This document shows, one piece after another, positions 1-63,057 of a stretch of DNA of 64,000 bases. A model generated the notes under the pieces. That model was not told where the DNA came from, searched no databases, and saw only the letters and a list, made by a program, of their open reading frames with translations. The stretch comes from Spirometra erinaceieuropaei (Eukaryota > Platyhelminthes > Cestoda > Diphyllobothriidea > Diphyllobothriidae). Position 1 is the stretch's first letter; each line of letters begins with the position of its first letter. The DNA lies in contig CACRXP010001247.1 in assembly GCA_902702965.1 (NCBI GenBank), forward strand, positions 1,782 to 65,781, read 5' to 3'. A program made the position numbers and the translations under genes.

Positions 1-2370
1 CTCTACATAAACGTTCTCACATCAGAATTATCCCTAGTATCTTAGAAGATCCCCGTGTATGAAGCAATCGGCTGGATTCTACAAGGTCAGTTTACTTACA
101 GTGCGTATCTCAAATTCAAATACACATTTTGATTCTATGAAAGTAGTCGCAGAAATATCTTCCATATTACAAAAAGATTCTGTTCACACGCTAACTGTGG
201 CTTCTAAGCAAAAGCTGGAAATTGGAGACACCGAACTAATTAATTTGGCGGCTTATTGCTAATCCGATAATTGGGACTACAACTCTGCAGTTGTTCCACG
301 CCTGTGAAATTTCCCTTAATCTAAAATCCTCCAATTTTAGCCTACATATGTTCTTGCGCAGTTCTTAGGCACATGGACACAGTACAGTATTTTTTAAAAA
401 CTTTCAACTGGCTAAATAATTTATATTCGTTACGGTACGCCTGTCTTTGAAGAACTGGTTCTTAGGCAAGTAGCCCCTTACATGTAGTTAATTGTAGGTT
501 TTATTTTTCTGATATAACATGAAACATGAAAAGGAGCATTGTAAATACAGTCGTAGTATTAGGAAGGCGATGTTAACTGATGGTGTTAGCAGAAAAAAAA
601 GCATATGTTGACTAACGGGAGCAAACTCCATCCTCAGGCGAATTTCCTACAAGGCGAAATAAAAGAGCCTTGTTTGATTTTGTGCGTGTGCAACCATTTT
701 AATTGCTCTATATTTTGCTCATAGAGTGTAATAATGCGGTTAGACCACGAGACAGTTCGGCATCCCCGTCTAATTTCCAAAATATCCTCAGAAGGTGTCA
801 GAATAAGGTAAATCGTTGTGTCTCAGTAAATCCCTTTATTTAAAAAAAGTGGCCTAAATATACTAGGTCGATTTTGTGGCTGTAAGTCTTTATACGTCAG
901 TCGGCGCTAAATGACTGTCGAATTAGACTATGAAGCGGACCATGATGAATCAAGATACGGTGTATTTAGATTACTCGTCTGCATAGAACATTTAAAAAGG
1001 TTACTGGCATATTTTACAGCAGTTTGCCCACACATGTGTATTTTTGCGTTGGCAAAAGAAGTGGCAACATTTGAGAGACCCAACTGAACTAGATTTATCC
1101 TAGGCTTTTATGAATGATTGCACTAATCACAAGCAGTGCGAATGCTTTCCCGGGATATTCGAATTTATGCCCTAATTAGTGGAAAATCAGATGCATGATT
1201 ACAACGCAAATCCAATCGATTTCTAAATAAAGAAACAAAGAAATATTCTCAGATTAATCATTTTAAAATCAGGCATAATTTCGGCAGCAGGCATCTCACC
1301 GGTGTGTGTCCAATTTACGAAAACCGAGACAAAGGATTCGTCCAAATGCCATTCGTACGTTTCCCACTCATACTCGCTTTTGTTGAATTTTCCATTAAAC
1401 CAGACTTCTTTGTTCTCATTCTGGAACGTTACTTCTTAAATTGTATCCGACAGTAATGAGATGGTTATGATGAACAGTGCAAAACAAATACATTTACTAT
1501 ATAAGAGGATGAATTCATTTAGGCACTGTTATTCGAAGCCGAGTCAACAGCGTTTTGTGACATAAAGAAAGGCTGTGGACCTTGACGCAGTTAAGCGATT
1601 TTTTGTTTCAGCCAACTAATGATAAAACTGGCATCACCTCCTCGTGGTTCACAATGCATCATTCGGTTTGACTTATGTGTGTCTCCTAGAAGACCTCACA
1701 GGCAGTCGCACATGAAAAAGGATAAATTATCCGGAAATGGTGACTCGAGTGGTTACTTGTGACTCTTAAGTTTTTATAAGCTGGTCACATTCACTAGCTA
1801 AATCGGTATAAATTCAATCATTTAGGTCAGCTCTCATAAGGGCTTCTTACGGGGTTTTGAGAATGTCCAGTCATCGCCAATAATCTCCGAGCACTACATC
1901 CGGTATATTTTATTCTAACTAATAAACTTCTCAGTCAAGGTTCGATTTCCTGTTTTATTTGCCTCGTATAAAAACAATACTACAATTGGTCAAAATCATG
2001 CGAGTAAATTTACAGCTAACAGGTAAGCAGTTATCCTCCATTACACGACTAATAATAATATCATTTGCTTCCGGGAACGTAACCAAAAATGCAAAATGAT
2101 CCTTTTAATTTATCTGTTAGATTCGATTTTTACGGCATGCCAGATGCGATTCTCAGAACGGCGTGTCCTTGCTGCTGGATACTGTGACTGTCTGAATAAA
2201 CCATACGCTGCCCCTTCATAAACATAGACTCAAAGCATTTTAAGGGGAGATGATAGGAGACTTCATTTGACCGCCCTTGCAACACTTTTCGCTCCCATTT
2301 TGGACAGTACTGGGAACACATGGCAATTGTAGATGAGATTAAAGTATTCACCTCAAAAGTGTGAGCGAAA
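1..2370. other. Unannotated intergenic stretch
   Basis: No ORF here resembles a known family, and the longest are under 75 codons. No repeat shared with the rest of the window was recognised by eye. The sequence is AT-rich with ordinary complexity. It could hold intron or old repeat sequence. Confidence 0.6.
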
Positions 2371-2374
2371 TACG

Positions 2375-3363
2375 GTTGCTGGAGGTAGACACCCAGAAAT
2401 TCTTGGGGGTATCTTGGTTACGGTTTCGCTTAAAACGTCGTTCTGATGCTCCAAGTTAGCCAATTCCGCGATGTCAACCCTTTACATTGTAAAGCGGGCT
2501 TTCTCTCCGTAAACGAGGACTGTTTCGCTAGAGTCGTTAGGGGGTTTGTGCAGCCACAGTTAGAGTTCTCTATTTTAGCGTGCAAACCGTGAACCGCTGA
2601 AGACCTCGGCATCCTGAAGAAAGTTCAAAGGCAGCCAACCAAACTCTTCAGTGGACAGGACTCTATTCCCTACGAAAGACGGTTATCCAATCTCCGTCAT
2701 TTTAGTCTGAGGCACAGACAGTTAAGAGGCGACTTGATACAAACATACCGTATTATGCGCAGCCAGGACTGCTGTCTCGTACCTGCTGACTTCTTTGAGT
2801 TAGCAACCACAGCGAACCTCCGAGGTCAACCACTCAACCTAAGTATGACTGGCGCCAGGCTGGCCACACGAAAGTTATTCTTTTCCAACAGAGTGGTCGA
2901 AACTTGGAATGCTCTGCCTGCAGACATTAACATGTCAACATCCGTCGAGGTTTTTAAGCGAAAGCTGGATCGCTATACCACCACACATCACATTGTTACC
3001 CGACAGATACCGTCTTAGCGGTCCGTTTTAACAGTTTACTAGTGCTGTAATATTACTCACTGCATTTCAGTAACGTCTAGTTTTGTTGATTAGTGTCCCG
3101 CGTCCTTTGAATGTGAATATTGACATTTGCTTCGTCTCCCCCGATAACTGAGATCGGCACAATTATTCGTGAGCTGACTAGTGTAAAGCACATTTATTAA
3201 TGATAGTGTTTTACTACTTGGAAAAATGCGTTTATCTCCTCGGTTTCAGAAGGGTGTCTGTAGCAGTTTGATGTTTCCTTTGTCCATTTTTTCATATAAT
3301 TCGCTTCCTTGTAAGAAACAGGGAGTTCTCTCAAATAAACTGAACTGAACTGGACTGAAAACT
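2375..3363 (+). pseudogene. LINE-B relic: 3' end of a CR1/Jockey-type retrotransposon
   Basis: A 5'-truncated non-LTR retrotransposon. The protein-like trace starts near the conserved post-RT motif that reads EVDVQKDLGV in the sister copy (39660), here degraded to EVDTQKFLGV. It runs through several frameshifts into an open piece at 2734-3018. That piece carries the family's C-terminal block: a CCLVPADFFEL segment, an LRGQPLNL segment and FFSNRVVETWNALP. The 3' UTR follows and ends in AATAAACTGAAC with ACTGAA-type repeats at about 3332-3360, the same kind of tail seen at 26780, 27425 and 40665. RT catalytic domain and endonuclease are absent, so it cannot move. It is the same subfamily as the copy at 39660-40680. 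Clade assignment by motif only. Confidence 0.8.
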
Positions 3364-3789
3364 TGAGAATAGTCACTTTTTATTTTGGATTGCGTCAGAG
3401 TAGTAAATATACTCAAGGCGAGTAATATTGTGTCATTTCGCACGATGCTCTCATTTTTTTTCAAGAAACATATTCAGCGTCATCAAAATGCTTGACATAC
3501 TACATCTTCTCTCATCCGCATAAAACGTTTACTGTACACGACAACAGACAGGAGGGTACGTTAAACCAACAATTAAGTATTTTCATCAGAAGATATCATG
3601 GAGGCTTTGGTAAGCTGAGTTTAAATAAAACAGTTTATGGAAATGCCACAGCGTTCTATTTATTTAGGAATGGAAATTTTTAGTTTTCAGCACGAAAAAA
3701 CACTGGGGTAGGAGTGAAAGGTACCATATTTGCTCTAGATTTATGCATGAAATTTTAAATAGCCAAAATAACAACAGTTTTGACTGTCA

Positions 3790-3826
3790 GAAGAAGAAGA
3801 AGAAGAAGAAGAAGAAGACGAAGAGG
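3790..3826 (+). repeat. (AAG)n microsatellite
   Basis: About eleven GAA/AAG triplets with one interruption. It abuts the PLE-derived segment that starts at about 3834, so it may mark that element's junction. Confidence 0.85.
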
Positions 3827-3833
3827 CGTTCAC

Positions 3834-4575
3834 CGGAACGGGTTTACTGGAAGTCTGACGTTTCGAATATTTGGTTCGTTTACCCATCTTCAGATACTGG
3901 GAAGTCCCGCGCACGAGTCCTCTTATAATGGCACCCTTTGTTCAATGCGTGGCCCGTCAACGCCGCCTGTGTGGCTGCTGTCACCGTGACCTGAATCGCC
4001 CCCGTTGGTCGCGGAGATGACTGACGGCCCCGATTGTCGCGCGCCTTGACTATCCCCCGCTAAGAAGTTTCGTAAAGTCAGATAGGGGGGAGGCAAATTG
4101 ATGTGTCGGTTGACAGAGCAGTCGGTAGAAATCCAGGCTTCTTGCACTTGCCTTTCTGTATGATCACCGCCACGGACCACAATCTCAACGGCGTCAAAGT
4201 TGAAGATGTGTCCCATTTGCGCGGCATGGGTTGCTACCTCCGACTTTGGGTCCCACCTTCGCACGGCCAACTTATGCTCGTGCATTCGCGCTTGCAATCG
4301 CCAAAAGATCCGATCCCCCAGCAAGATATGCCGGTCGTTGTCTACCGACTTCAATGCGGCTGCGGAAGGTGCAACTACGTCAGCGAAACCGGCCGACGGC
4401 TGAAACCGCGAATGCACGAGCATAAGTTGGTCGTGCGAATGTTGGACCCAAAGTCGGAGGTAGCAACCCGTGCCGCGCGAATGGGACGCATCTTCAATTT
4501 TCACGTCGTTGAAATTGTGGGCCGTGGCGATGATCATACAGAAAGGCAACTGCCGGCAGTCTTTCTATTTGCATA
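3834..4575. pseudogene. Penelope-like element relic with GIY-YIG domain, folded back on itself
   Basis: The plus-strand part (about 4306-4575) encodes a GIY-YIG-type nuclease end: VVYRLQCGCGRCNYVSETGR, then RMHEHKL and a VATRAARMGRIFNF block, matching the other PLE ends in this window. The minus-strand part (about 4300 down to 3923) encodes the same domain's C-terminal half plus the tail beyond it (QEAWISTDCSVNRHINL). Arms at about 4145-4288 and 4406-4551 are reverse complements with roughly 117 bp between. The reverse transcriptase is missing. A hammerhead-like motif lies at the outer end (see the entry at 3843). This fits two PLE ends joined head to head after truncation. Neither strand encodes a full protein. 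Confidence 0.75.
3843..3908 (-). ncRNA. Degenerate hammerhead-like ribozyme motif of a PLE end
   Basis: On the minus strand the order is CTGAAGA, one T, a GGGT...ACC helix candidate, CGAAAC, then GTC. This is the same order as the better copy at 21334-21376. Helix II is poorly formed, with extra bases before CGAAAC, so catalysis is doubtful. PLEs are known to carry hammerhead ribozymes in their terminal repeats. Confidence 0.4.
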
Positions 4576-10345: not shown

Positions 10346-10620
10346 ATTACGCGAGCCTGGTAGTCATCTGGTGGATTCTAGGTGAATTACTTAGGAAATC
10401 CTGCTTGAGCAGTCAACTTACTGTATCAGATTTGGTGGATTCCAGACGTTGCAGTAGGTTGGGCGGGTAACTTGACCCACATGTGATTAAACTCGCGTCG
10501 TCCGGCGGGGCCTCGTAGCTCAGGTGGTTAGAGCGTTAGCTGCGCTAAAGCCTTCCCCTTACTGCGTGGGTTCGAATCCCACCGAGGCGCCGAGTTTTTC
10601 ACAGTTGGGTCAATATGAAT
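10312..10620 (+). repeat. tRNA-like repeat unit (SINE-like, about 300 bp)
   Basis: The unit begins with the right hairpin arm. It continues through a stretch shared with 47470-47650 and a tRNA-like core at 10510-10588, and ends in GAGTTTTTCACAGTTGGGTC. In the core, GCCTCG pairs with CGAGGC, GCTC pairs with GAGC (D arm), and GTGGG-TTCGAAT-CCCAC forms a T arm. It has A-box-like (TAGCTCAGGTGG) and B-box-like (GGGTTCGAATCCC) promoter words for RNA polymerase III. The flanks are conserved along with the core in other copies, so this is a repeat rather than a plain tRNA gene. Confidence 0.8.
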
Positions 10621-23330: not shown

Positions 23331-24104
23331 AGCAGCATTCTACCAGCAGTTACTGCATACCTCCGAAAATCTGCTTCTCACCCAACGCGTAATGTTTCTA
23401 ACGAGAGTTCGAGAGGTCAACAAATGAACTGCCCTCATCTTGTGTTTGACCAATCGTCTGACAGCATCGAAGTTGTGAATTGCCTTCCCGCGTTGGGCCA
23501 GAGTGACCATGTAGTTCTCATGTGGGAATGCACATTATTCTCCCTGCCTGCACAACCGCTCAATTCCCGACCCAATATTTGGCTCGGTAATTTCAAACAG
23601 ATGAAAAAGGATCTTAGTCCTATCGACCGGGCATCCTCTCTCTCCGGTGATATCGAAGAGGTTTGGTGTCAGTTTAGAGAGATAGTCCACAACCTCATCT
23701 CCAACCACTGCCCAATCATGCGCAGAAGACTAACGAATAGACCCCGCTGGTTGACTCCGTCCCTGAAGAAGGAAGTTAACAAGAAGAGGAAGCTATGGAA
23801 AAGATGCCTGATTGACCGGAGGCCAGAAGCCCTAAGTAGTTATAAGTTACAGAGAAATCGGGTGAAGATTCTCATCGCCAGAAAGCGGGAAGCCTTTGAA
23901 AAGGATCTTTTGAACCGTGCCATGGTTAATCCCAAATTCCTTTACAGCTGCATAAGACAGAGCACACGGAATAAAGATCCAATCCCACTGCTGCGAACAG
24001 CAGAGGGAATGGAAATCTCCGATGACAAGGATAAGGCTGAACATCTCTCTCAGTTATTCCGGTCCGTCGTGACAAGTGAACCTGATTTTCTTTCACCCAA
24101 TTGA
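23322..24104 (+). pseudogene. LINE-A endonuclease C-terminus and linker before RT
   Basis: An open stretch of 260 codons. It contains the C-terminal endonuclease block LVFDQSSDSIEVVNCLPALG and the SDHVVL motif, where SDH is the conserved Ser-Asp-His of APE nucleases. A basic linker follows (RRRLTNRPRWLTP, KKEVNKKRKLWKR, NRVKILIARKREAFEKDL). The first Met is not a real start; the frame enters from a frameshifted upstream domain. It ends in TGA at 24102, after which the trace continues as DEETPTLEAVFFTITIF and STSPGPDAIPAKLLKG. Confidence 0.75.
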
Positions 24105-24149
24105 GGAGATGAAGAAACGCCTACCCTCGAAGCCGTCTTCTTCACCATA

Positions 24150-25130
24150 ACAATTTTTCGGAATGAGCTACTAAACCTAAAAGAATCGACCTCCCCAGGC
24201 CCTGATGCAATCCCGGCCAAGCTGCTGAAGGGGCTAGCTCCCGAAATGTCCAAGCCGTTAGCCTTGATCTTTCAAACTTCATTTGTTACTGGATGCCCGC
24301 CCTCTGATTGGAAGTCCACTACCATCGCTCCGCATTTTGAGGGCAGAAGTCGTGCGTCTGCGAATAACTACAGGCCAGGGAGCCTTATCTCCATCAGTTG
24401 CAAAATCAGGAGAAGATAATTAAGAAGGCTTTGATGCAGTTTCTCGAGCAGCACCACCTCCTCTCTGATGCACAACACGGCTTTCGAAGTGGTAGGTCCT
24501 GTCTCACCAATCTACTCTTTACGCTCGAACGCTGGACCAAAGCACGTGATAAAGGCAAGCTGGTGCACGCCATCTACATCGACTTCAAAAAGGCTTTCGA
24601 CAGCGTTCCTCATCAACGTCTCTTGTACAAACTGCGCAACGCTGGAATTCGTGGACGCCTTCTTGTATGGATCCAGAACTTTTTGGCTGGACGGTCCCAG
24701 AGAGTGCAGGTCGGGCGTCAACAGTTCTCATATGTAAGCGTGGTGAGTGGCGTCCCACAGGGCTCAGTCTTAGGTCCCACGATATTCCTCGTTTTCATAG
24801 ATGACTGCGTCAAGGACCTAGACTGTGATTCCATCCTGTTTGCCTAGGACATGAAATTGTGGAAAGTTATTCACGATGCGGCAGACGCACACCACCTGCA
24901 AGCAAAGTTGAACAGGCTCGAAGACTGGTCGAAGCGCTGGCTAATGCCCTTCAATATAAGCAAATGTAACTTTCTTCAACTCGTCAGCTTCAGGGCCTCC
25001 AGCCCCAGGACCTACTTTCTAAACGGCACACCACTGCAACAGGTTGACATTCAGAAGGACTTGGGTGTATGGATTACATCTTCACCCAAAACCAACACTG
25101 CACTGTGCGAAGGCGGCTAAATCGGCTACG
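24150..25130 (+). pseudogene. LINE-A reverse transcriptase, copy 1, catalytic Asp replaced by TAG
   Basis: RT blocks in order: STSPGPDAIPAKLLKG; a frameshift near 24410; HGFRSGRSCLTNLLFTLERW; IYIDFKKAFDSVPHQRLLYK (first catalytic Asp); SGVPQGSVLGPTIFLVFIDD; then SILFA-TAG-DMKLW at 24838-24864. The expected sequence there is FADDMKLW, so the first Asp of the catalytic pair is a stop codon (24845-24847). After it come LNRLEDWSKRWLMPFNISKC and VDIQKDLGVWI. The frame then fails again after NTALC (about 25110). The same stop and frameshift occur in copy 2. The enzyme is dead as written. Confidence 0.9.
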
Positions 25131-25672
25131 GCTACATTGCTACTCATTAGGCGAGCCTTTATGGGATTTGACCCTGACTGCTTTTGCAAAATATTTGGCA
25201 CTTACGTGCGGCCTCATCTAGAATATGTCATACAGGCGTGGAGACCTTGGACTGCCAAGGATTATATCGTCTTGGAGAAGGTCCAGAGACGGGCGACCAA
25301 AATGACACAAGGTCTGGAAGCACTGCCCTATGAAACCAGACTGTCAACTCTCAACCTGTTTTCACTTTCCCACAGGCAATTACGTGGTGACCTTATACTA
25401 GCATTTCGCATTATCAACGGCCTAGACTGTTGTTTAGAACCCACTGATTATTTCACTCCAGCTAACAGACCACTTTGCGCGGTCATTCCCTAGAACAACG
25501 CGCCGGGAAAGCAAGGATTAATATACGAGAGTTCTTTTTCAGTAACAGATTGGTTGCAGTGTGGAATGCCCTGTCTACCGATGTTGTAATCTCCTCCTGT
25601 GTGAATTGCTTTAGGCGTAGACTTGACCTGCGTCAAGTTTCCCACTTACCCTCTTCACATCTACTCACATAA
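25044..25672 (+). pseudogene. LINE-A C-terminal region after RT, copy 1
   Basis: After the frameshift the protein continues as HCAKAAKSATATLLLIRRAF, YVRPHLEYVIQAWRPWT, EKVQRRATKMTQGL, RLSTLNLFSLSHRQLRGDLI and DCCLEPTDYF. A further shift at about 25475 leads into FFFSNRLVAVWNALSTDVV to a stop near 25672. This C-terminal block is shared by LINE-A and LINE-B. Its role in the family is not well defined. Confidence 0.8.
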
Positions 25673-25744
25673 CCCGGAACCAACTTATAAAAGTTTATAG
25701 TACTTGCAATTAGTGAGTAACTGTTAATGATCATGCTTTGTCGA

Positions 25745-26630
25745 CTATCTGGCAACGCAACCTTCCAAGCGCATTCTCGATGGCTTTCACTAACTACCAC
25801 TCGGCTACAACGGTAAAACTTGTTTTCCTAGATAGACGTAGAAACCGCCAAAAATGGCTACCAAGTCCATATGCCTTGCGTGACATTTCAGCCGGACAAT
25901 TGTGCAACATTTATTGCCGAAAGTATTGTCTAAAGGAAGCAATGAGTTAGAACATCTAAATGTACACTAAATTTGAGTGAGACAGACGGAATTAACAGAT
26001 CAGTGATCACTCGCCCAAACTTCGTAGAAGCGCTCTCCCATCAGACTTTGTCTGGCGATCTACTGACGCCATTTCCAGAAAACAGCATCAGCACGTGCGG
26101 AGGAGGTCAACTGGCTGTGGCCGCCCTTGGGAGGGGGAAGGCGAAGGTCCAACTTACCTGGATCGGTCAGACCAGCGCACCGTCGCAGTCTCACCTGATC
26201 TGCGCAGGTTCCCGACGTCGCAGGCCCCGTGACCCACTCTGTGCATCGAACACACTTCACCCAGGTAAGTTCTGCTCTGTGATGATTAACGTTGAGTCCA
26301 TAAATGACAGCTGCTTTAGGAACTATGGAGATAAGTACATAATTGAAGATATGGAGATCGCGTAGTCAGACCGGACCACAAAACACAGACGAGAGCTCCC
26401 AATGCCGATATGATTTAGGCAAGCTAAACTTATGAATTAGCATCTGACGTGTCGTGCAGTGATCGTTTGGTCTGTGTTTTAAAGATGAATATCACCGAAT
26501 TCTACTAATTAGTGATAAGTTTTACCTGCACTGGCCTGAAGTGAATTCATCTGAAGCAAGCGTGTTCTCGTCAACCGGTTTCGCGAATCCTGAAATTGCA
26601 GAAAATACATACATCCAGAAATAATGTTTG
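25745..26630. other. Insert in LINE-A copy 1, absent from copy 2
   Basis: Copy 2 runs straight through the sequence that flanks this segment. Both junctions sit in related words (TCGACTATCTGGC on the left, TCGACTAGCCGTC on the right), so a 7-bp TCGACTA duplication is possible. No coding family was recognised; an ORF at 25973-26365 has no known motif. Inside are CTTACCTGG (26153-26161) and its complement CCAGGTAAG (about 26262-26270). No terminal inverted repeats were found. It may be an insertion here or a deletion in copy 2. Confidence 0.55.
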
Positions 26631-27410: not shown

Positions 27411-27632
27411 GACTATTCAGTATCAGTATCAGTTTATTAAGGGAAATATAGGCAAGCGCCTTTGAATTCCCTCTTGGTTACAAGTCGTCGGAGAAAAACA
27501 CTGATAAATGGGAAGGTGAAAAAGGGATTTTGTACATACTCGCGGACAGCTGGCAGCTAGTCGAAAAAGAGTAATCATTAATGGTTACTTACTAATTACA
27601 AGTAGTATAAACACGTATAAGATGGTACCGGG

Positions 27633-28175
27633 TTATGTGAGTGGATGTGGGGGTGGTAATTGGGAAGCTTGACGCAGGTCAAGTCTACACTTGAAGGAGT
27701 TCACACAGGAGGAGGTTACAACATCGGTAGGCAGGGCATTGCAGGCTGAAACCACTCTGCTACTGAAAAAGGACTTTCGTCCATTGGTTCTTGATTTCCC
27801 TGCGCGTAGTTTTAGGGGATGACCGCGCAAAGTGGGCGTGTTAGCTTGGGTGAAATAATCAGTGGGATCTAAACAACAGTCTAGGCCGTTGATGATGCGA
27901 AATGTTAGTATAAGGTCACCACGTAATTGCCTGTGGGAAAGTGAAAACAGGTTGAGAGTTGACAGTCTGGTTTCATAGGGCAGTGCTTCCAGACCTTGTG
28001 TCATTTTGGTCGCCCGTCTCTGGACCTTCTCCAAGACGATATAATCCTTGGCAGTCCAGGGTCTCCACGCCTGTATGGCGTATTCTAGATGAGGTCGCAC
28101 GAAGGTGCCAAATATTTAGGAAAAGCAGTCAGGGTCAAATCCCATAAAGGCTCGCCTAATGAGTAGCAATGTAGC
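27633..28175 (-). pseudogene. LINE-A C-terminal region, copy 2
   Basis: Contains RPHLEYAIQAWRPWT, EKVQRRATKMTQGLEALPYE, FSLSHRQLRGDLILTFRIIN and DCCLDPTDYFTQANTPTLRG, and ends SFFSSRVVSACNALPTDVVT. A stop just before (DCFS-stop-IFGTFV) breaks the upstream link. From about DCCLDPTDYF onward it differs from copy 1 much more than the upstream part does. Confidence 0.85.
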
Positions 28176-28185
28176 CGTAGCCGAT

Positions 28186-29061
28186 TTAGCCGCCTTCGCA
28201 CAGTGCAGTGTTGGTTTTGGGTGAAGATGTAATCCATACACCCAAGTCCTTCTGAATGTCAACCTGTTGCAGTGGTGTGCCGTTTAGAAAGTAGGTCCCG
28301 GGGCTGGGGGCTCTGAAGCCGCCGAGTTGAAGAAAGTTACATTTGCTTATATTGAAGGGCATTAGCCAGCGCTTCGACCAGTCTTCGAGCCTGTTCAACT
28401 TTGCTTGCAGGTGGTGTGCGTCTGCCGCATCGTGAATAACTTTCCACAATTTCATGTCCTAGGCAAACAGGATGGAATCACAGTCTAGGTCCTTGACGCA
28501 GTCATCTATGAAAACGAGGAATATCGTGGGACCTAAGACTGAGCCCTGTGGGACGCCACTCACCACGCTTACATATGAGAACTGTTGACGCCCGACCTGC
28601 ACTCTCTGGGACCGTCCAGCCAAAAAGTTCTGGATCCATACAAGAAGGCGTCCACGAATTCCAGCGTTGCGCAGTTTGTACAAGAGACGTTGATGAGGAA
28701 CGCTGTCGAAAGCCTTTTTGAAGTCGATGTAGATGGCGTGCACCAGCTTGCCTTTATCACGTGCTTTGGTCCAGCGTTCGAGCGTAAAGAGTAGATTGGT
28801 GAGACAGGACCTACCACTTCGAAAACCGTGTTGTGCATCAGAGAGGAGGTGGTGCTGCTCGAGAAACTGCATCAAAGCCTTCTTAATTATCTCCTCCCTG
28901 ATTTTGCAACAGATGGAGGTAAGACTCACTGGCCTGTAGTTATTCGCAGACGCACGACTTCTGCCCTCAAAATGCGGAGTGATGGTAGTGGACTTCCAAT
29001 CAGAGGGCAGGCATCCAGTAACAAATGAAGTTTGGAAGATCAAGGCTAACGGCTTGGACAT
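28186..29061 (-). pseudogene. LINE-A reverse transcriptase, copy 2, same TAG and frameshift as copy 1
   Basis: MSKPLALIFQTSFVTGCLPS, NNYRPVSLTSICCKI, HGFRSGRSCLTNLL, IYIDFKKAFDSVPHQ and SGVPQGSVLGPTIF follow without the frameshift that copy 1 has near 24410. The frame then meets TAG (28456-28458) in place of the first Asp of FADD and continues DMKLWKVIHDAAD. It ends after NTALCEGG at 28186, exactly as copy 1. The protein from EEIIKKALMQF to SILFA is almost identical to copy 1. Confidence 0.9.
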
Positions 29062-29284
29062 TTCTGGAGCTAGCCCCTTAGCAGCTTGGCCGGGATTGCA
29101 TCAGGGCCTGGGGAGGTCGATTCTTTTAGGTTTAGTAGCTCATCCCGAAAAATTGTTATGGTGAAGAAGACGGCTTCGAGGGTAGGCGTTTCATCGTCTT
29201 CATAAGCGGGTGAGGAATTATTACTGGAAAGGCGAAGTTCTCCCCTTGTTCTCATTGCTTTTGTATTGCGTACGAAATTGTAGG

Positions 29285-44188: not shown

Positions 44189-44275
44189 GGTCTCGTAGCT
44201 CAGGCGGCCAGAGCGTTGGCTGTACTCAAGCCCCCGCCCTTTCTATTGTGGGTTCTAATCCCCCCGAGGTCACTG
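44189..44275 (+). repeat. tRNA-like repeat core copy
   Basis: GGTCTCGTAGCTCAGGCGGC, GAGCGTTGGCTGTACTCAAG, then GTGGGTTCTAATCCCCCCGA: D arm intact, T arm damaged. The upstream sequence (GGAATCCACCAAATCTG...) is the complement of the usual leading flank, so the flank is inverted here. Confidence 0.65.
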
Positions 44276-46130: not shown

Positions 46131-46131
<1 letters not shown>

Positions 46132-46208
<77 letters not shown>

Positions 46209-46210
46209 GA
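46132..46210 (+). repeat. (GA)n microsatellite
   Basis: About 70 bp of uninterrupted GA followed by GATAGAGAGA. Likely length-variable. Confidence 0.95.
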
Positions 46211-47235: not shown

Positions 47236-47770
47236 TCATTATCTTCCTTGGGCAGTCAACTTACTGTATAAGATTTGGTGGATTCCAGACCTTGCAGTAG
47301 GTTGGGCGAGTAACTTGACCCAAGTGGGATAAAACTCGCGTCGTTCGACGGGGCCTCGTAGCTCAAGTGGTTAGAGCGTTGGCTGTACTAAAGCCTTCCC
47401 CTTACTGTGTGGGTTCGAATCCCACCGAAGCGAGGAGTTTTTCACAGTGGGGTCAATAGGAATTATTCAAAATCTGTCAAAATACCTATGAATTACGTGA
47501 GCCTAGTAGTCATCTGGTGGATACTAGGTGAATTACATAGGAAATCCTGCTTGGGCAGTCAACTTACTGTATCAGATTTGGTCGATTTCAGACCTCGCTG
47601 TAGGTTGGGCGGGTAACTTGACCCAAATGTGATAAAACTCGCGTCGTCCGGCGGGGTCTCGTAGCTCAAGTGGTCAGAGCGTTGGCTGCACTTAAGCCTT
47701 CCCCTTGCTGTCGTGGGTTCGAATCCCACCGAGGCGCCGAGTTTTTCACAGTTGGGTCAATATGAACTAT
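47236..47770 (+). repeat. tRNA-like repeat, two tandem units (period about 303 bp)
   Basis: Unit cores are at 47353-47431 and 47656-47735. Each is preceded by GGGCAGTCAACTTACTGTAT...GATTTGGT and GTAGGTTGGGCG, and followed by GAGTTTTTCACAG. GCTC/GAGC and GTGGG-TTCGAAT-CCCAC arms are intact in both. The anticodon arm is GGCT-GTACTAA-AGCC in the first unit but TGCACTTA in the second. The extra bases before the T arm and the six-pair acceptor stem do not fit a standard tRNA. The unit matches 10312-10620. Confidence 0.85.
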
Positions 47771-51069: not shown

Positions 51070-51265
51070 TTACTGTATGTTATTACCGACAAAGACAAGG
51101 GAGACTGGAATGTCCATTTCTAGCTTATTAGGCGTCGTCAGCCAGTCATGCATAACCCCGAAGTGTGAGACACCCGAGGCTCGAACTCGCGACCGGTTAG
51201 TTAGAATTCCTCTCCTCTAACCACTGGACCACGAGCCCGTTGCCCTGTCGGTTTCAATCGAGTAT
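51070..51265 (-). repeat. tRNA-derived SINE, copy 6
   Basis: Minus-strand A-box region GGCTCGTGGTCCAGTGG, B-box region CGGTCGCGAGTTCGAGCC, body CTTCGGGGTTATGCATGACT and GGCTGACGACGCCTAATAAG, tail CAGTCTCCCTTGTCTTTGTC then GGTAATAACATAC. One of the better preserved copies. Confidence 0.85.
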
Positions 51266-51279
51266 ATAGAAGGTATTGA

Positions 51280-51985
51280 TGTTTCCTCAATCAGAAAAAT
51301 GATGCTTTCTTACATGGAAACGAGAACACACTTTCCCCACCAGGTAGTATATTAGATGAGCCTGTTGATTTAACTGGCTGATTGCCGAAAACAGCGAATG
51401 GACGGAAAAGCTCTTCTTATTAATCAGACCTTTTGTCCGTACTCTCGCCCTTTCCCTCTCCCGGATCATGCCATCCGAATCGTCAACGTGAACATAGGCA
51501 TCATTTTTCACTTCTGCAGCGAGCTACGGCGGTCCTCTCGGGCGCTTACAGGCAACCAACTCCACTCTCATCACCATCTGCGGAAACGCGCATCTTTATC
51601 CTGCCGGCATTAACCATTTTATGGACTTAATCAGACCCTTTGGGTGTTCTGTTGAGTCACCAACATATACTACAGATAACAACCCCCGAGTAGATAAGAG
51701 AGTCATTTGCGTGTGAAAGGACTTACCTAAACCGTTGCGCCCCTGACGGCTAAGGATACCAAACTTCAACCACACGCACACAACAAGCCCGTCCCGTGTA
51801 ATAGAAAAAAATAAGAGAGCAAATTTATTCTGTACACAGAGTAGGTAGGTAACCGTAATTTAGCAGTTTTATTATTCGTTAGGACAAGGCGTCCGTGTGG
51901 GAGTGCGTGAGAAGGGTTGAGGCGTTGGCATGCATCTGACATATCCGTATCAGCAGGAGGAGGTAAATGGCTGCAGCGAAGGAGA
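51280..51985. other. Unannotated stretch
   Basis: Overlapping small ORFs at 51287-51781 on both strands, none with recognised motifs. No shared repeat seen. Confidence 0.45.
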
Positions 51986-52007
51986 CACGATCACTGAAAC
52001 ACGTGCT

Positions 52008-52052
52008 TTATTAGCCTGACGTTTCGGATTCTCACTGTCCATCACCAGAGAC
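52008..52052 (-). ncRNA. Hammerhead-like motif, left arm copy (mutated)
   Basis: On the minus strand: GTCT, CTGGTGA (A6 of the CTGANGA core changed to G), T, GGA.....TCC, GAAA, ACGT, GTC, AGGC. Helix II is reduced to three pairs. Probably inactive. Confidence 0.45.
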
Positions 52053-52473
52053 AGAGTCAGATAAGGGTAGTGGATTGCCCAGGTATTGCAGTATTTATAG
52101 GATGTAATTGTTATGCCGCTACGTGTCTATCAGAGTCAGCGCTGAGACCTAGCCTAGGTAAAGAAGTTAGCCGCGAGGAGGACGTGCAAATAACCACCTT
52201 CCTCGATATCAATGTCGGCAAGCCAAATCATCCAAGAGTCCATACGGATGACGAAATCCGGTAGGCAGCCACTCGGCGACGTGCGATGAGCGTGGGAGCC
52301 GATAATCTTGATCGGCATACAGGCGTTATGGCAACGGCATGGCAACAGCATATTTAAATACTTGGCCAGTCGAGTTGTGGTGCACTTGGGAGCTGCCAAC
52401 TGTGATAGGCATGTAGCGGTTTAGAAACTAAATCCTATAAATATTGCAACACCTGGGCAATCCACTGCCCTTA

Positions 52474-52515
52474 TCTGACTCGATGGATTCGAGTGAGAAT
52501 CCGAAATGTCGGGTT
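52474..52515 (+). ncRNA. Hammerhead-like motif, right arm copy (core lost)
   Basis: Helix II GGATTC (52485-52490) with GAATCC (52497-52502) and GAAA (52503-52506) are kept. The CTGANGA box has become CTGACTCGA and ACGTC has become ATGTC. Inactive by these changes. Confidence 0.45.
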
Positions 52516-52539
52516 AATAAAGCACATTTTCCAGCAATC

Positions 52540-52620
52540 GTGTCTCCCTCATCACGACTGCTTCCTGGAACTCCTCTCTTCGCTTCTATTAACGAAGTAA
52601 TTGACTGTGTTGGACATGTT
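52540..52620 (+). repeat. PLE sequence downstream of the hammerhead-like motif
   Basis: CGTGTCTCCCTCATCACGAC, CTTCCTGGAACTCCTCTCTT and CGCTTCTATT match 21400-21465 and the complement of 54391-54450. It is the stretch that follows the ribozyme-like motif in this PLE family. Confidence 0.7.
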
Positions 52621-52629
52621 ATTGGTTTG

Positions 52630-53440
52630 CCATGGGTTGAGTCATGGACGCATGATTAGGGGACAGGAGTGGTGGTAAGCCACGTAGGTCGACGACTGTT
52701 TGCGGGCGAAGCCGTGACTCAGCACAGCTGGACAAGGTATGCTTCAGGTCAAGCCTGAACGGTGACTGTGCGTTAGCGGCAGGTCTTCCGGCTAGCTCTG
52801 CTCCCGTAGTCGCCTGCCAGCAGCCAGACACCGAAAAATAGGGCGGTGGAGCGGCTTTCACAAGTCAACCCACAGCATTAAGACCGCCTACCGACGACGC
52901 CCACGAGATCGACGCAGACCTACTATAAGAGGATAACTGAAGGAAGGAGAGTGGGGCGTTGAAAACAGGTCAGACCCAAACACCAGAAACTCAGTTCCCT
53001 ATTTGGTAGGTAGCTTCTGTACGCTGAAGTGGAAACAACGCGTCTCCCGACTCCGAAACAAAAAATATCAAGCAGAAAGGGGAATATACCAGCTGAACAC
53101 AATCAGAACATGTGTCTGTTTTCCAAAAACTATGAAATAAATATCAGAAATTATTGAGAAAGTAACGCACGGCCTCTGAATCAGGGAATTGTTAGGAAGT
53201 ATCATGTAATCTGAAAAAGATTCGCAAGTTGCGTGAACAAGACAGGATGAAAGTGGGACTGCGTCTCCTTTCTAAACGATTCCCAGGAAGTAAATTAACT
53301 AGTAACACAGGAATGACGATCATTATATGCGATTCTTTTCAATTCCACGTGCCCCTGAAGCCTGTTACGCCGAGCTGCAATATTTTCCCAATCATCGGAC
53401 CTAATTGAACAGCAGTATGACGTCCACGACAGGTGCAGTA
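52630..53440. other. Unannotated stretch
   Basis: An ORF at 52619-52861 has no recognised motif. No shared repeat noted. It could contain more of the LINE-D 5' part in a decayed state. Confidence 0.4.
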
Positions 53441-53449
53441 AAGGCGAAT

Positions 53450-54190
53450 TTCAGGATGGCTGTAATCTGTGGAATTGCGTGGTCCGGATGGTGTCCTTGA
53501 AACAGTTTCAAATAATCTTTCCTACCAAATGGTTCTCAGGCTCTTCAAGGTCTTTAATATAGCTTCAGGCCAGTGAGTTTAGGAAGCCTTTGCCCAGTCG
53601 ATGCAGCCTACGTTGACTTTAGAACAATTTTCGACAGTGTTTCACACAAGTTGCTGATATTTAAACTGTGCCAAATGATAGGGAAAGGGAACGTTTTCAA
53701 GTAGCCGACTGACTTTCTTGCAGAAAGACCTATGCATATGCGTATTGTTGACGTCAATTTGGATTGGGCGACGGTTTGCGGTGGGTTTCCGTGCGTGACC
53801 ATTTCGTGCTCCATTCTTTTTAAATATATGTGAACGATTGTCTAAACTGACTGGATTGCAAGAGGATAATAGTCGTATATGACCCCAAATCGTAACAAAC
53901 GGTGGGCATCGGAGGGAACGTTACAGCTGCAAGCTAACCGGGATCGGTTACAGCCGCGGTGTACTGCATGAACCCAATAAACACCACTTACACGCCTCCG
54001 ATCTAACTACAGGAGGACGGAGGATTAGGAAGTCATCAGTCCGAATCACGTAACGAGTCGATGGACTTCGGGGTGTTGATAGCCTCCGTACCCAAACCAC
54101 CCTCTCACTGTAGCGAGATATTAAAGGAGACCACAGCTGTCCTAGGCGCGATCAGGGCGTTCGTCCCCTCTTATAGGAAGTACGGAGGAT
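53450..54190 (+). pseudogene. LINE-D relic: decayed non-LTR reverse transcriptase
   Basis: One frame at 53600-53840 reads YVDFRTIFDSVSHKLLIFKL, a stop after NVFK, PTDFLAERPMHMRIVDVNLD, WATVCGGFPCVTISCSILF, then KYM-stop-TIV. These match the YIDF.KAFDSV, FL..R...V and GVPQGSVLGPILF blocks of CR1/Jockey-type RT in the right order, with PQG lost. Upstream, PDGVLETVSNNLSYQMVLRL is a trace of the N-terminal RT block. Downstream, MDFGVLIASVPKPPSHC and LKETTAVLGAIRAFVPS (54061-54170) match the post-RT DLGV....KPS.HC block of LINE-A/B. The catalytic DD block is unreadable. Long dead. Confidence 0.7.
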
Positions 54191-54294
54191 ATACAATCAT
54201 GGTTCCGGAAATCCTGAAATTAGTGGGCTGTGTGCTACGTGTGCGGAGAGTATTTTTGCCAACGGTGTAGTTTCTCTTACGTAGCCCAATAGTC

Positions 54295-54510
54295 AGCCTG
54301 TACAAGCAAAAGTTGACCTTTGACGTATCCTCTGGCGATGCAACACGCGAAAAACATGACGTGCGGGGTGACCTTGGACAGTCTATGTTGTTGCCAATAG
54401 AAGCGAAGAGACGAGTCCCAGGAAGTAGTCTTGATGAAGGGGACACGATCGCTAGCCTGTTATTGGCTGATAGACGAAAGCGGGCGCGAATAAGAACCAA
54501 TTAGCGCCCG
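54295..54510 (-). repeat. PLE terminal fragment, inverted
   Basis: The reverse complement contains GATCGTGTCCCCTTCATCAA, GACTACTTCCTGGGACTCGT and CTCTTCGCTTCTATTGGCAA, the segment that follows the hammerhead-like motif at 21400-21465 and 52540-52600. The motif itself is not recognisable here. Confidence 0.65.
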
Positions 54511-56980: not shown

Positions 56981-58132
56981 CTAAAGCAAATGGATATTCT
57001 TTTTCAAACAATCCTGTACAATTTCATCGGACCAGAGGGAGACCTGGACTTCTCCGATATGAACCTTATCCAAAAAGAAGAGGCACAACCGGGATTGACC
57101 AATGCCACCGCCTACCGTATATGGGAGTTCACCATTTAGGAGTCTCCTGTGGAAATCAAACTGCTTCCTTTTTTCTTGTCCAGCAAGCTTCAACTGCCTC
57201 TCCATGGCCTCCTCATCCACGCGGATGCCCATGCTAGATAACTCCAAACCGATGTCCAGCGGTTCGTAGTAAACAATAATGTCCCCATTTAGTTCCCAGT
57301 CATCATAGTCAGGCGCACGTCCATCGTGTTTATTCCCCGATTTTAGCGTCTTCCCGATCTGGGTAATGAAAATGGCTCCATACTTCTTCGAATAAACCCG
57401 TTCTCGCTCCTTCGGCGTCATTTCTGGATACAGATCTTCAAGCTCCTGTGAACTGACAAACGTGATGCTATCTGGCAGTTTTCGGGTAAGACAAGGATAT
57501 GCCTTGACAATCTTCTCTTCGAGTTCCTTTAATGCTTCATATATTCGCTCCACGACATCCTTTAGCATATCGTACGTTCTGTCCTCCTTGCGTATCACCA
57601 CCTCCCAATCCCATTGGTCGACGTAATAGGAGTGTATTGGACTCAGATCTTCATCTCGTCGTATGGCATTCATGTCTGTGTAGAGACCGCTTCCTACTTC
57701 AAAATCATATCGCTTCAAAGCCATTCGCTTCCATTTTGCCAGTGAATGAATGATGACACCTTTCGCCTTCGACTTGAATTCAAACGAGATAGGCCTCTCA
57801 TACCCGTTGAGATCGTCATTTAGTCCACTTTCGGCAGCGACAAACAACGGCGCCGAGACTCTGGTAAGGTTGAGTTTAGTCGCAAGGGCCTGCTGGAAAG
57901 TATCTTTAACCACCTTGATGGCGTGCTGAGTGTCTATAAGTGATAGTTTGGATTGGTATTCGAACCGCCCGTTCTGCAATGACTCCATTGGTTTCAAAAG
58001 GCAAATGTCCAGAGCGTAATGCCGAGAGAGCGTAATTCCAAGCGGCAGTGGCAGCCAAACCTCCCAACCGTTTCTGACCGCAGCTGAACCTCTAATGCCT
58101 GCGAAAGTCATTTCCGCGCCTTCTATAGGCAT
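56981..58132 (-). CDS. asnA: Aspartate--ammonia ligase (asparagine synthetase A)
   Basis: Makes asparagine from aspartate, ammonia and ATP (AMP and pyrophosphate released); cytosolic in known cases. AsnA has a class II aminoacyl-tRNA synthetase-like fold and is unrelated to the glutamine-using AsnB/ASNS normal in animals. All family blocks appear in order: SKLSLIDTQHAIKVVKDTFQ (61-80), LNLTRVSAPLFV (87-98), GLNDDLNGYERPISF (103-117), HSLAKWKRMALKRYDF (129-144), GLYTDMNAIRRDED (149-162), HSYYVDQWDWE (167-177), VSSQELEDLYP (226-236), GRAPDYDDWELNGDI (271-285), ELSSMGIRVDEEAM (297-310) and GGGIGQSRLCLFFL (341-354), then HIGEVQVSLW (358-367). No stop, frameshift or intron interrupts it. Length is 383 residues against about 330 in E. 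coli. The first 48 residues have no family counterpart; starting at Met49 (57988) gives 335 residues, so that is the likelier start unless the extension is a targeting peptide. Wording is closer to Firmicutes/Bacteroidetes/protist AsnA than to the E. coli enzyme, from memory. No operon partner. Confidence 0.95.
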   Translation of the reverse strand: MPIEGAEMTFAGIRGSAAVRNGWEVWLPLPLGITLSRHYALDICLLKPMESLQNGRFEYQSKLSLIDTQHAIKVVKDTFQQALATKLNLTRVSAPLFVAAESGLNDDLNGYERPISFEFKSKAKGVIIHSLAKWKRMALKRYDFEVGSGLYTDMNAIRRDEDLSPIHSYYVDQWDWEVVIRKEDRTYDMLKDVVERIYEALKELEEKIVKAYPCLTRKLPDSITFVSSQELEDLYPEMTPKERERVYSKKYGAIFITQIGKTLKSGNKHDGRAPDYDDWELNGDIIVYYEPLDIGLELSSMGIRVDEEAMERQLKLAGQEKRKQFDFHRRLLNGELPYTVGGGIGQSRLCLFFLDKVHIGEVQVSLWSDEIVQDCLKKNIHLL

Positions 58133-58162
58133 TCTGTGACGTATCGACTTTTTCTTTTTCCC

Positions 58163-58216
58163 ATTGGCTGTTCTAATAGATGACTAGCCAATGCCGACGA
58201 GCGTTCTTCTCATTGG
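58163..58216 (-). promoter_or_regulatory. Cluster of three CCAAT boxes upstream of asnA
   Basis: CCAAT occurs on the minus strand at 58163-58167 and 58212-58216 and on the plus strand at 58188-58192, all within 31-84 bp of the first possible ATG. Spacing is about 25 bp. CCAAT boxes bind NF-Y in animals. There is no TATA box nearby. Three in 54 bp is more than expected by chance, but promoter function is inference. Confidence 0.4.
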
Positions 58217-58219
58217 ACA

Positions 58220-60475
58220 GCACGCTGGCTCGCCTGTACGTCTTCCCAACGGGCATGGCCGTCGTTGGTGTGTGCTTTAGATAATGTTGTCGGGGCTTTG
58301 ACACGTGTCCCCTTTTTCTAATCATGCCGGACGAACTACGATAACTTGCCGTAAAGGAGGGTGCACTTTTTGATTACAGCCAGCCATACGTCAGCTCGCG
58401 CCGATTTTTTGAAGCTACCTCCTTGTTTTAATTTCAGTCCGGTATTTGGAACCAAAGTTTAGTAAGAGATTTCACAGTAACACTTCCACGGTCCCCAAGT
58501 AAGCATTTTCACTACCTGGGTAGTGGTGCTTCGCGCGTTCTCCCACAAACTGCAGAAGGGTGATTAAAGTCGCTAAAAATCCTCCGCTCAGTCGTCCAGG
58601 GCTTTTGGTTTCTTCGAGTCAAATAAAATCGAACTAAACACTAGCGAAGTTCCTGTGGTCTGCATGGCCCAAAATACCTTCTTAGTTGCGAATGAGTCTA
58701 CTGTGGCCGAAGAATCCTTGCAGTTTCTCACTACTTTTTAGTAATTAGTGTTTCCTATCCCGAGTTTATTTCCTCATCTTAAAAATGCGATGTAATTTGT
58801 AGACGCGCTGTTGAATCAGGTCCTTCTCAGATTTTAGGTGCAGACTCCGTTGGCCTTTACCATCGAGCCATCCCAGATAACGCAGTGTATAGGGTCGAAG
58901 GTGGCGGCGTAAATAGCGTCCGGATGTGATCAGATTATTCGCAGTATTTCCACTTTTACAACTTTTGCAACTTGGAAAACAGTTGCTGCCTGGCTCGGTA
59001 TCGTCAAACTGAGGAAATGCCTAATGTGTACTGAAAACCTCTCGGCAAATTTTTCAAAAGATTTTTATGCAGCGAAAAGCGCAGCATTTAATTATTGAAG
59101 ATACACTCAAAAAGGTAGTGGCCACCACCCAGACGACTGACGGTCGTCTTATTCAGTTCATTTTTTTTCTCAGTTCAAGAACTCGAGCAAAACATTATTT
59201 TCCATGGAGGTGTAGTGCCACGGCGGACGGAGTGTGCACACAGAGTGCTATAATCATCAGGCCAAATCCCGTGTTGTAGGAGAAGACACAAGGCGCCAGA
59301 CTGAGGGGTTTTTGTATACAGAACCCTGGGTTGTCGTCTCAGGTGGCAGTGGCAGCTGGCGAGGCCAGGGCTGGTGTCGACTGCGTTTAGTAATGCCTGA
59401 GAGTTCGTAGGAAAGGGTTGGCAGTCGCTTTTGTAGGTATGGTGTCCAATCGGTGTATGTTTCATTTGTCGAGGGTTGACCTTCAAGTGGCTTATGTTGC
59501 TGGTTGCAGGTGGGTGGTGAGTCTATGGGGCGCATGGGAAACTGCGACTCTGCACGCACGTGCGTCTGAGTTGAATTCAGTCGAGTGGCTGCAGTTCAGT
59601 GCGTCTGGAACGCTTAACGTCCCCTTGAACTAACGAGACCCTAAACAAGGACGCCAGACATGGCCGTGATGGCTATCAATAACAGATGTTTCAACTATTG
59701 CCTTTCCTGGACTTTTAGACTACACTCCAGGAGGCAGCTGTAGCCATGCAGCTTCCTCAGCAGTCACACAGTGTAGGACCACTGTAGATGTTATAGGTCG
59801 ATGCAAATTATAAATTTCCATCTTCCCAATGTAGCAAATTTGAATTTTCTCCTGAACGTGAAACCTTTTGAAGTTTAAGTAAGGGACTACGGATCTTGCG
59901 TTCTGCAGCATTTCACAGTTTTCGGTCTATAAACGCACTTCCAACTGCTTCAGTGATCCTGAATAGCATTTGAAATAATGCGAATTAGCAACGATATAGA
60001 GAAGGACCCCACTTAACTGTCAGTAGCCTGTGGATCGTCTCAAATGGGGCTTTATCTTAGGATACATTTGTTGGCTGTTGCAAAAATTACACTGCCCACA
60101 ATGATTACTTCCCACGACCTCACACCTTATCTCGAAATCCGTTATTTTGTGAAGTTTACTTACCGTTTATTGTTTAAATACTACCCTCATTTCCGTTGTC
60201 GTACAATAGCGTAGAATAAGAATTTCGGCATAAATTCAGGCGATTTCTGTGTTTTCTTTCATTTTGCCAGATTACTGTCTTGCGTGCTGTCCCACCCATA
60301 AAACTCTCCTTATCGTAAATCACGTATCCATAGTCTACTGACGGTTAATTGGGGTCTTTCTCTATACCGATGCCTGCGAAACTGCATTATTTAGCCGGTA
60401 ATAGCCTGCTAGTTTGGCCCTCACCAATGACAAGGTCCACACTATCCCACGAGGTGAACGCAGCCATCACTTGAA
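58220..60475. other. Repeat-poor stretch upstream of asnA
   Basis: ORFs at 59067-59279, 59175-59559, 59418-59633 and 59720-59911 show no known motif. No repeat family of this window was recognised. Confidence 0.5.
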
Positions 60476-62604: not shown

Positions 62605-63057
62605 TTACGGGACAGGTGGTAATAGGGGTTTTATGCGTGGTGGCTGGTCGGGATGTACGATACTAGCCGACAGAAAGCCTTATTTGAACAGGTGAATAGT
62701 CAGCGTTGGCCCGCTCTCCGTTCCCTTATTACAAAATGAGTCGCCAAAGGCAGTATAGTGGTAACGGACGAGTGGAAGGCGTATAATCGTCTTCCCTCAG
62801 AAGGTTATCTACATTTCTCCGGTAACCACTCAAATAACTTCAAGGATCCTATCACCGGACGGCACAGCAATGCCATTGAGGCATACTGGAGTAGACTGAA
62901 AAGGAAACACCCCAAGGGAGGCCCTGTATGTGGTCGAGCTGCGTGGGCTCACATAGACGAAGGACAGTATCGTCCTTGGTTTGGTCCCAATGCCATGTCT
63001 TTGACAGGTGCCTGGGAACTGTTCCTGTCCCCTGTTGTGCAGAATTATCCTATTTAA
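62605..63057 (+). pseudogene. Merlin-type (IS1016-like) DDE transposase relic
   Basis: One frame reads VGMYDTSRQKALFEQVNSQR, WPALRSLITK, a TGA at 62737-62739, then VAKGSIVVTDEWKAYNRLPS, GYLHFSGNHSNNFKDPITGR and HSNAIEAYWSRLKRKHP. The three acidic residues fit the Merlin/IS1016 catalytic triad: Asp at 62659 (YDTSR), Asp at 62767 (VTDEW), Glu at 62878 (NAIEAYW). Before 62650 the frame shifts and the trace is GGNRGFMRGGW. The N-terminal DNA-binding part is missing. No terminal inverted repeat was identified. One stop and one frameshift are the visible lesions in the catalytic part, so decay is moderate. Merlin elements are known from flatworms and other animals. Confidence 0.85.

Follow-up and report, generated by a model that had tools for sequence, protein, structure and literature searches.

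Asparagine is made in animals by the glutamine-dependent synthetase ASNS (EC 6.3.5.4), which gives the same product as bacterial AsnA (EC 6.3.1.1) with an unrelated fold and another nitrogen source. The AsnA of E. coli has the PDB entries 11as and 12as. According to a passage of PMC3532385, AsnA genes of bacterial origin are also known in kinetoplastids (Leishmania, Trypanosoma brucei), Entamoeba, Trichomonas and Cryptosporidium. Among flatworms, an aspartate-ammonia ligase of Schistosoma japonicum (FN326707) is listed as higher in females (PMC4851400), and the transcripts of Trichobilharzia regenti include an enzyme of that name (PMC4749378); the passages of these two papers that name the ligase do not mention a bacterial origin. 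These schistosomatid ligases are expressed and are likened to the gene described here by name alone. The papers listed by a limited search of open-licence texts include, by their titles and the beginnings of their abstracts, none on a bacterial origin of flatworm AsnA. As far as this search shows, the gene kind is already known for flukes by enzyme name, and the new parts are its fusobacterial origin and the apparent disappearance of ASNS.

The DNA analysed here is a stretch of 64,000 bases (the window) that spans bases 1782-65781 of a contig of 97,862 bases in the 758.7 Mb, 1932-contig assembly of the tapeworm Spirometra erinaceieuropaei. Its setting is one of repeats and decayed mobile elements. 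On the minus strand lies a frame of 383 codons that runs from ATG to TAG with no internal stop, inside a stop-to-stop frame of 400 codons (Table 1). Its product matched the Pfam profile PF03590 (AsnA) at 355 bits (cut-off 27, 2.6e-106) over positions 1-227 of 228, and TIGR00669 (aspartate--ammonia ligase) at 328 bits, above the equivalog cut-off of 292.8. The Pfam search of the product gave no domain beyond AsnA and the overlapping tRNA-synt_2 core. The sequence-only reading had described an intact, intronless asnA of bacterial type in an animal chromosome, and both the intact frame and the bacterial type in a flatworm chromosome are borne out by these results. When 80 bacterial AsnA proteins were used as tblastn queries, each (80/80) gave one match in the window, always at asnA, starting at 57958-58024 and ending at 56984-57014; neither the window nor the other compared stretches of the worm's own genome gave a second match. 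AsnA has one match in the whole assembly.

Table 1. Position of asnA, its parts and the flanking host repeats in the window.
Feature	Position	Strand	Remarks
asnA ORF	56981..58132	-	383 codons without a visible intron; matched once in the assembly (758.7 Mb)
AsnA enzyme core	56984..57952	-	aa 61-383; equal in length to Cetobacterium AsnA there; holds Asp277 and Gln173
N-terminal extension	57953..58132	-	some 58-60 codons; no clear counterpart in bacteria
Upstream region	58133..58232	-	CCAAT motif at 35 and again at 84 bases upstream of the first ATG; consensus match only
Dispersed host repeat	59205..59686		5' side of asnA, about 1.1 kb away
Host repeat stretch	51077..54449		3' side of asnA; pieces recur

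The worm protein belongs to the same family as E. coli AsnA, matches it over the full length and shares its fold. An AlphaFold2 model (pLDDT 84.3, pTM 0.85) was closest in the PDB to E. coli AsnA 11as (TM 0.88, rmsd 1.9, 44% identity), followed by T. brucei AsnA. This match and the Pfam domains indicate a class II synthetase-like core without an anticodon-binding domain. A comparison set of 83 other AsnA rows (the 80 loci together with E. coli, 9v83 and 4lns) has 72 invariant columns, of which the worm keeps 71 and changes one from Val to Ile; when invariance is taken from the 80 bacterial loci alone, 92 of 93 columns are kept. All positions of the active-site region that were compared are also kept (21/21). 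Asp277 and Gln173 are, in our own mapping, the counterparts of E. coli Asp219 and Gln116; a passage of PMC3532385, which uses L. major numbering, describes this Asp-Gln pair as the anchor of the beta-carboxylate of aspartate in AsnA. From the residues and the modelled fold we infer that the worm enzyme most likely works like other AsnA. The class II synthetase-like subunits would use ATP to activate the beta-carboxyl group of L-aspartate to beta-aspartyl-AMP, with the Asp277-Gln173 pair holding the beta-carboxylate during activation, and free ammonia would then displace AMP to give asparagine. The worm gene differs from that of E. coli in its animal genome, its host-like third codon positions and an extra 5' stretch of 58-60 codons. 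E. coli AsnA has in addition a short loop after DYDDW, which is absent from the worm protein; damage was considered as a cause of this absence and rejected, because 80/80 of the fusobacterial and other bacterial relatives are without the loop too.

The closest relatives of the worm gene are the AsnA genes of Cetobacterium and near Fusobacteriaceae, which match it at 68-71% over 322-323 residues and form one well-supported clade with it. The match lengths fit no gap between the worm and Cetobacterium-group proteins, and the similarity starts at about aa 61 in the worm frame. In a scan of public genomes, the best 80 of 589 confirmed stretches included Cetobacterium at 69-70% identity, Fusobacterium at 67 and 62% and others at 59-64%. 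An AsnA match was present in 78 of 98 Fusobacteriota genomes, with a best identity of 71%. The 12 best of these matches (68-71%) included the Cetobacterium of the first scan and, by their order of listing, look like its near kin. A near-identical match to one bacterium, with no homologue in related worms, would have counted against the sequence-only reading; no bacterium above 71% was found in the 98 Fusobacteriota genomes or among the best 80 of the 589 stretches. As to related worms, an aspartate-ammonia ligase is named in the passages on the two schistosomatids, a likeness that is one of name.

The trees were built from rows chosen by their likeness to the worm, which cover Fusobacteriota and Bacillota plus two PDB entries. 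In a tree of 83 rows, the worm grouped with two Cetobacterium rows (100/98) inside Fusobacteriaceae (100/98). A tree of 41 of 81 rows, picked by hand for spread and without the two long PDB rows, gave the same placement (100/97 and 100/99). In this smaller tree, a four-row fusobacterial clade that left out the worm was disfavoured at p-AU 0.0148, a group that had been named after the first tree had been seen. Another tree held 32 Fusobacteriota rows (the best 30 loci of the Fusobacteriota search plus L002 and L021) and 17 of 76 non-fusobacterial rows picked for spread; some long-branch rows such as L080, L070 and L044, which were present in the 83- and 41-row trees, were left out of it. Here the worm fell in a 16-row clade (95/92) with 13 rows of the Cetobacterium group and two others. 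The 13 Cetobacterium-group rows could be held together without or with the worm, neither arrangement being rejected (p 0.271 and 0.272). L002 and L108, between which this tree shows zero distance, may be one gene. Among the rows sampled, the placements agree with a worm asnA nested within a bacterial clade with strong support, and the source was probably in the neighbourhood of Cetobacterium.

The gene does not look like a recent arrival. The codons of the worm asnA are host-like, since GC3 of its core is 0.519 versus 0.127, 0.189 and 0.146 in the nearest bacterial genes (L001, L002 and L003; the two Cetobacterium asnA genes measured lie at 0.13-0.19). Between the worm and L002, the differences by codon position were 0.32 at the first, 0.15 at the second and 0.65 at the third, and the differing codons among 323 comprised 149 synonymous and 98 non-synonymous ones. 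In a crude neutral simulation that started from L002 and modelled no insertions or deletions, 19, 3 and 0 of 500 runs remained stop-free at 0.05, 0.1 and 0.2 substitutions per site. Taken together, GC3, the codon differences, the invariant columns and the simulation argue for an old gene under selection. A degenerate leftover is rejected on the kept invariant columns and the open frame, and a recent transfer on the best identity of 71%, on GC3 and on the flanks. The sequence-only reading had offered recent arrival or purifying selection. Identity, GC3 and the 71 of 72 columns favour an old arrival under purifying selection, and the recent arrival falls away.

Host repeats lie on both sides of asnA. 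On the 5' side, the query 59205-59400 returned 41 rows from the assembly; one is the query's own locus, and the remaining 40, which are 76-85% identical, are on other contigs. The scoring covered 40 of 1256 first-look candidates. On the 3' side, copies of pieces at 52.0-52.6 kb are present on other contigs, and those at 51.1-51.3, 54.2 and 54.4 kb have further copies within the window; the piece nearest to asnA (54391-54449) is one of the latter. The scanned frames of at least 70 aa had no Pfam match in 54.45-56.98 kb (6/6 scanned) or in 58.2-59.6 kb (4/5 scanned), and no bacterial gene was recognised beside asnA in these flanking frames. The earlier claim of host repeats on both sides is upheld by copy number, and the LINE-D and PLE names given to 53.4-54.5 kb are not, the scanned frames being without a Pfam match. 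The repeats on both sides and the single assembled contig support the reading that asnA is physically joined to host DNA. A viral carrier of the gene was considered and rejected, as a viral-contig scan gave four pattern matches and no relative.

These results make it very probable that a flatworm ancestor took a functional asnA, now in single copy, from a member of the Fusobacteriaceae close to Cetobacterium long ago. The time since capture would have been long enough for the base composition of the gene to become host-like. The evidence for this reading consists of the frame, the family, the residues, the fold model, the tree position among the rows sampled, the flanking repeats and the single copy; expression of asnA, activity of the enzyme and replacement of ASNS are inferred. 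The alternative that comes closest is a transfer by way of a protist or fungus that had itself acquired asnA from Fusobacteriaceae. Eukaryotic AsnA is represented in the tree by two PDB entries alone, which leaves room for such an intermediate; however, nothing speaks positively for it, and in the trees built here the intronless asnA groups directly with bacterial rows, so we regard such a detour as unlikely. We give still less weight to an asnA that has another main reaction or is silent, with asparagine drawn from host tissues. The N-terminal extension, which lacks a clear bacterial counterpart, and the general ability of parasites to take up amino acids speak for it. However, a silent gene would have decayed, to judge from the neutral simulation, and the invariant columns have been kept (71/72), with the Asp-Gln pair among them.

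Two further explanations concern the origin of the sequence itself. The assembler might have fused worm sequence with the AsnA of a gut bacterium. In favour of this, the gene has no intron and is of bacterial type, its contig is small (97,862 bases), and no host-tying repeat was recognised in 54.45-56.98 and 58.13-59.2 kb. Such a chimera is nevertheless very improbable in view of the GC3 of 0.519 against 0.13-0.19 in the nearest bacteria, the host repeats beyond these intervals on both sides, the scanned neighbouring frames in which no bacterial gene was recognised, and the ceiling of 71% identity in both bacterial searches. Alternatively, AsnA might go back to early eukaryotes, with flatworms having retained it and most animals having lost it, as the possession of AsnA by several parasitic protists (a passage of PMC3532385) could suggest. 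However, the T. brucei enzyme 4lns and 9v83, to which the worm protein is 47.7% and 51.9% identical, fall far outside the worm/Fusobacteriaceae group in the 83-row tree, the nesting of the worm within Fusobacteriaceae is strongly supported, and the same passage reads the protist genes as bacterial in origin. Vertical inheritance is the least credible of the explanations considered. What the worm gene would share with those of the protists is that a parasitic eukaryote carries an AsnA derived from bacteria.

It is likely, though not proven, that ASNS has been lost from the worm genome. The profile PF00733 (Asn_synthase) had 0 matches in the assembly, two first-look candidates having been scored and neither being significant. 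Human ASNS gave 0 candidates at E<=10, an empty protein-query result that is uninformative without a genome known to match. The control profile PF00152 (class II synthetase core) gave 13 matches, AsnA itself included, with four exon-sized pieces on one strand of a single contig (C281). The search proceeded exon by exon in an assembly that may be incomplete. Because no ASNS was found in the genome, AsnA probably took over asparagine synthesis in the worm, a step of which we are less sure than of the origin of the gene. Leishmania, by contrast, keeps AsnB besides AsnA, as stated in a passage of PMC3532385. The same source already argues for AsnA as a target in Leishmania on the ground that humans do not have it.

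We lean, with some reserve, towards a wider reading in which the flatworm lineage lost ASNS and any other protein with the Asn_synthase domain and would obtain asparagine solely from the AsnA of a Fusobacteriaceae of fish-gut type; Cetobacterium commonly inhabits the gut of freshwater fish. If this is true, the asparagine supply of the worm would be coupled directly to free ammonia, and the worm would have an essential enzyme that is absent from vertebrates. A role of the enzyme in ammonia disposal is a guess. To our knowledge, there are few well-supported transfers of bacterial metabolic genes to animals in which the animal's own unrelated enzyme has apparently been lost. If the schistosome aspartate-ammonia ligases share the same event, the transfer would date far back among parasitic flatworms, and the identity of the donor group would hint at the habitat of their ancestor.

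The 5' part of the frame can be read in two ways. The family models start at aa 63-69 of the product, and 76 of the 80 bacterial matches begin at or below 57994, the other 4/80 between 58006 and 58024. The extension may be an N-terminus peculiar to the worm, or else untranslated 5' sequence; a mitochondrial presequence and an upstream exon were considered as further possible readings. Translation may start at Met49 (codon 57986-57988) as an alternative to the first ATG, which would give a protein of 335 aa, near the length of bacterial AsnA. The two CCAAT motifs upstream are possible promoter elements, judged by their match to the consensus.

Several minor observations were made in the window and the assembly. 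Different contigs carry two synthetase exons (L093, C133:500800-501288; L094, C223:899184-899672) that have identical profile limits and near-equal scores and represent either a duplication or two assembled haplotypes; the L093 exon is most like asparaginyl-tRNA synthetases. RVT_1 copies occur at 24.4 and 28.5 kb of the window. They belong to a reverse-transcriptase element present in two inverted copies (24093-25754 and 27551-29213), whose arms are 98% complementary over 1059 bases and lie about 2.4 kb apart, and this is a young pair amid a decayed neighbourhood. A piece of an ISXO2/IS1595-type transposase at 62740-62910 on the plus strand (PF12762, 41.1 bits), presumably as in Merlin-type DNA transposons, looks decayed. 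Four tRNA-like predictions (10509-10591, 44189-44273, 47352-47433 and 47655-47738), three of them also found by Rfam, are probably tRNA-derived SINEs rather than tRNA genes, since they sit in copies of repeated units. A (GA)40 microsatellite with 97% matches occupies 46131-46210.

The only COX1 match in the assembly is a fragment at C892:98700-99527 (L170), whose first 200 codons match PDB COX1 chains. Its sense strand is 46% T and contains one stop; the conserved Asn in the motif LLFDRN is encoded by AAA, and a Trp by TGA. The Asn of this motif is conserved in the best PDB COX1 matches. AAA read as Asn marks the echinoderm/flatworm mitochondrial code (table 9), and a T-rich bias is usual for flatworm mitochondrial sequence. 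We accept, on codon usage and base composition, that the fragment reads in the flatworm/echinoderm mitochondrial code and, with its T-rich bias, fits a flatworm. Its internal stop and its position past base 98,000 of the contig make a nuclear copy of mitochondrial origin probable. No mitochondrial DNA was recognised by base composition in 21 stretches from small contigs (L149-L169), eight of which were also searched by Rfam. One of these stretches (L150) is AT-rich. Bases 2000-4500 of two contigs of about 15 kb (L159 on C1839 and L163 on C1828) have a G+C content of 2-4%, versus about 45% in the window.
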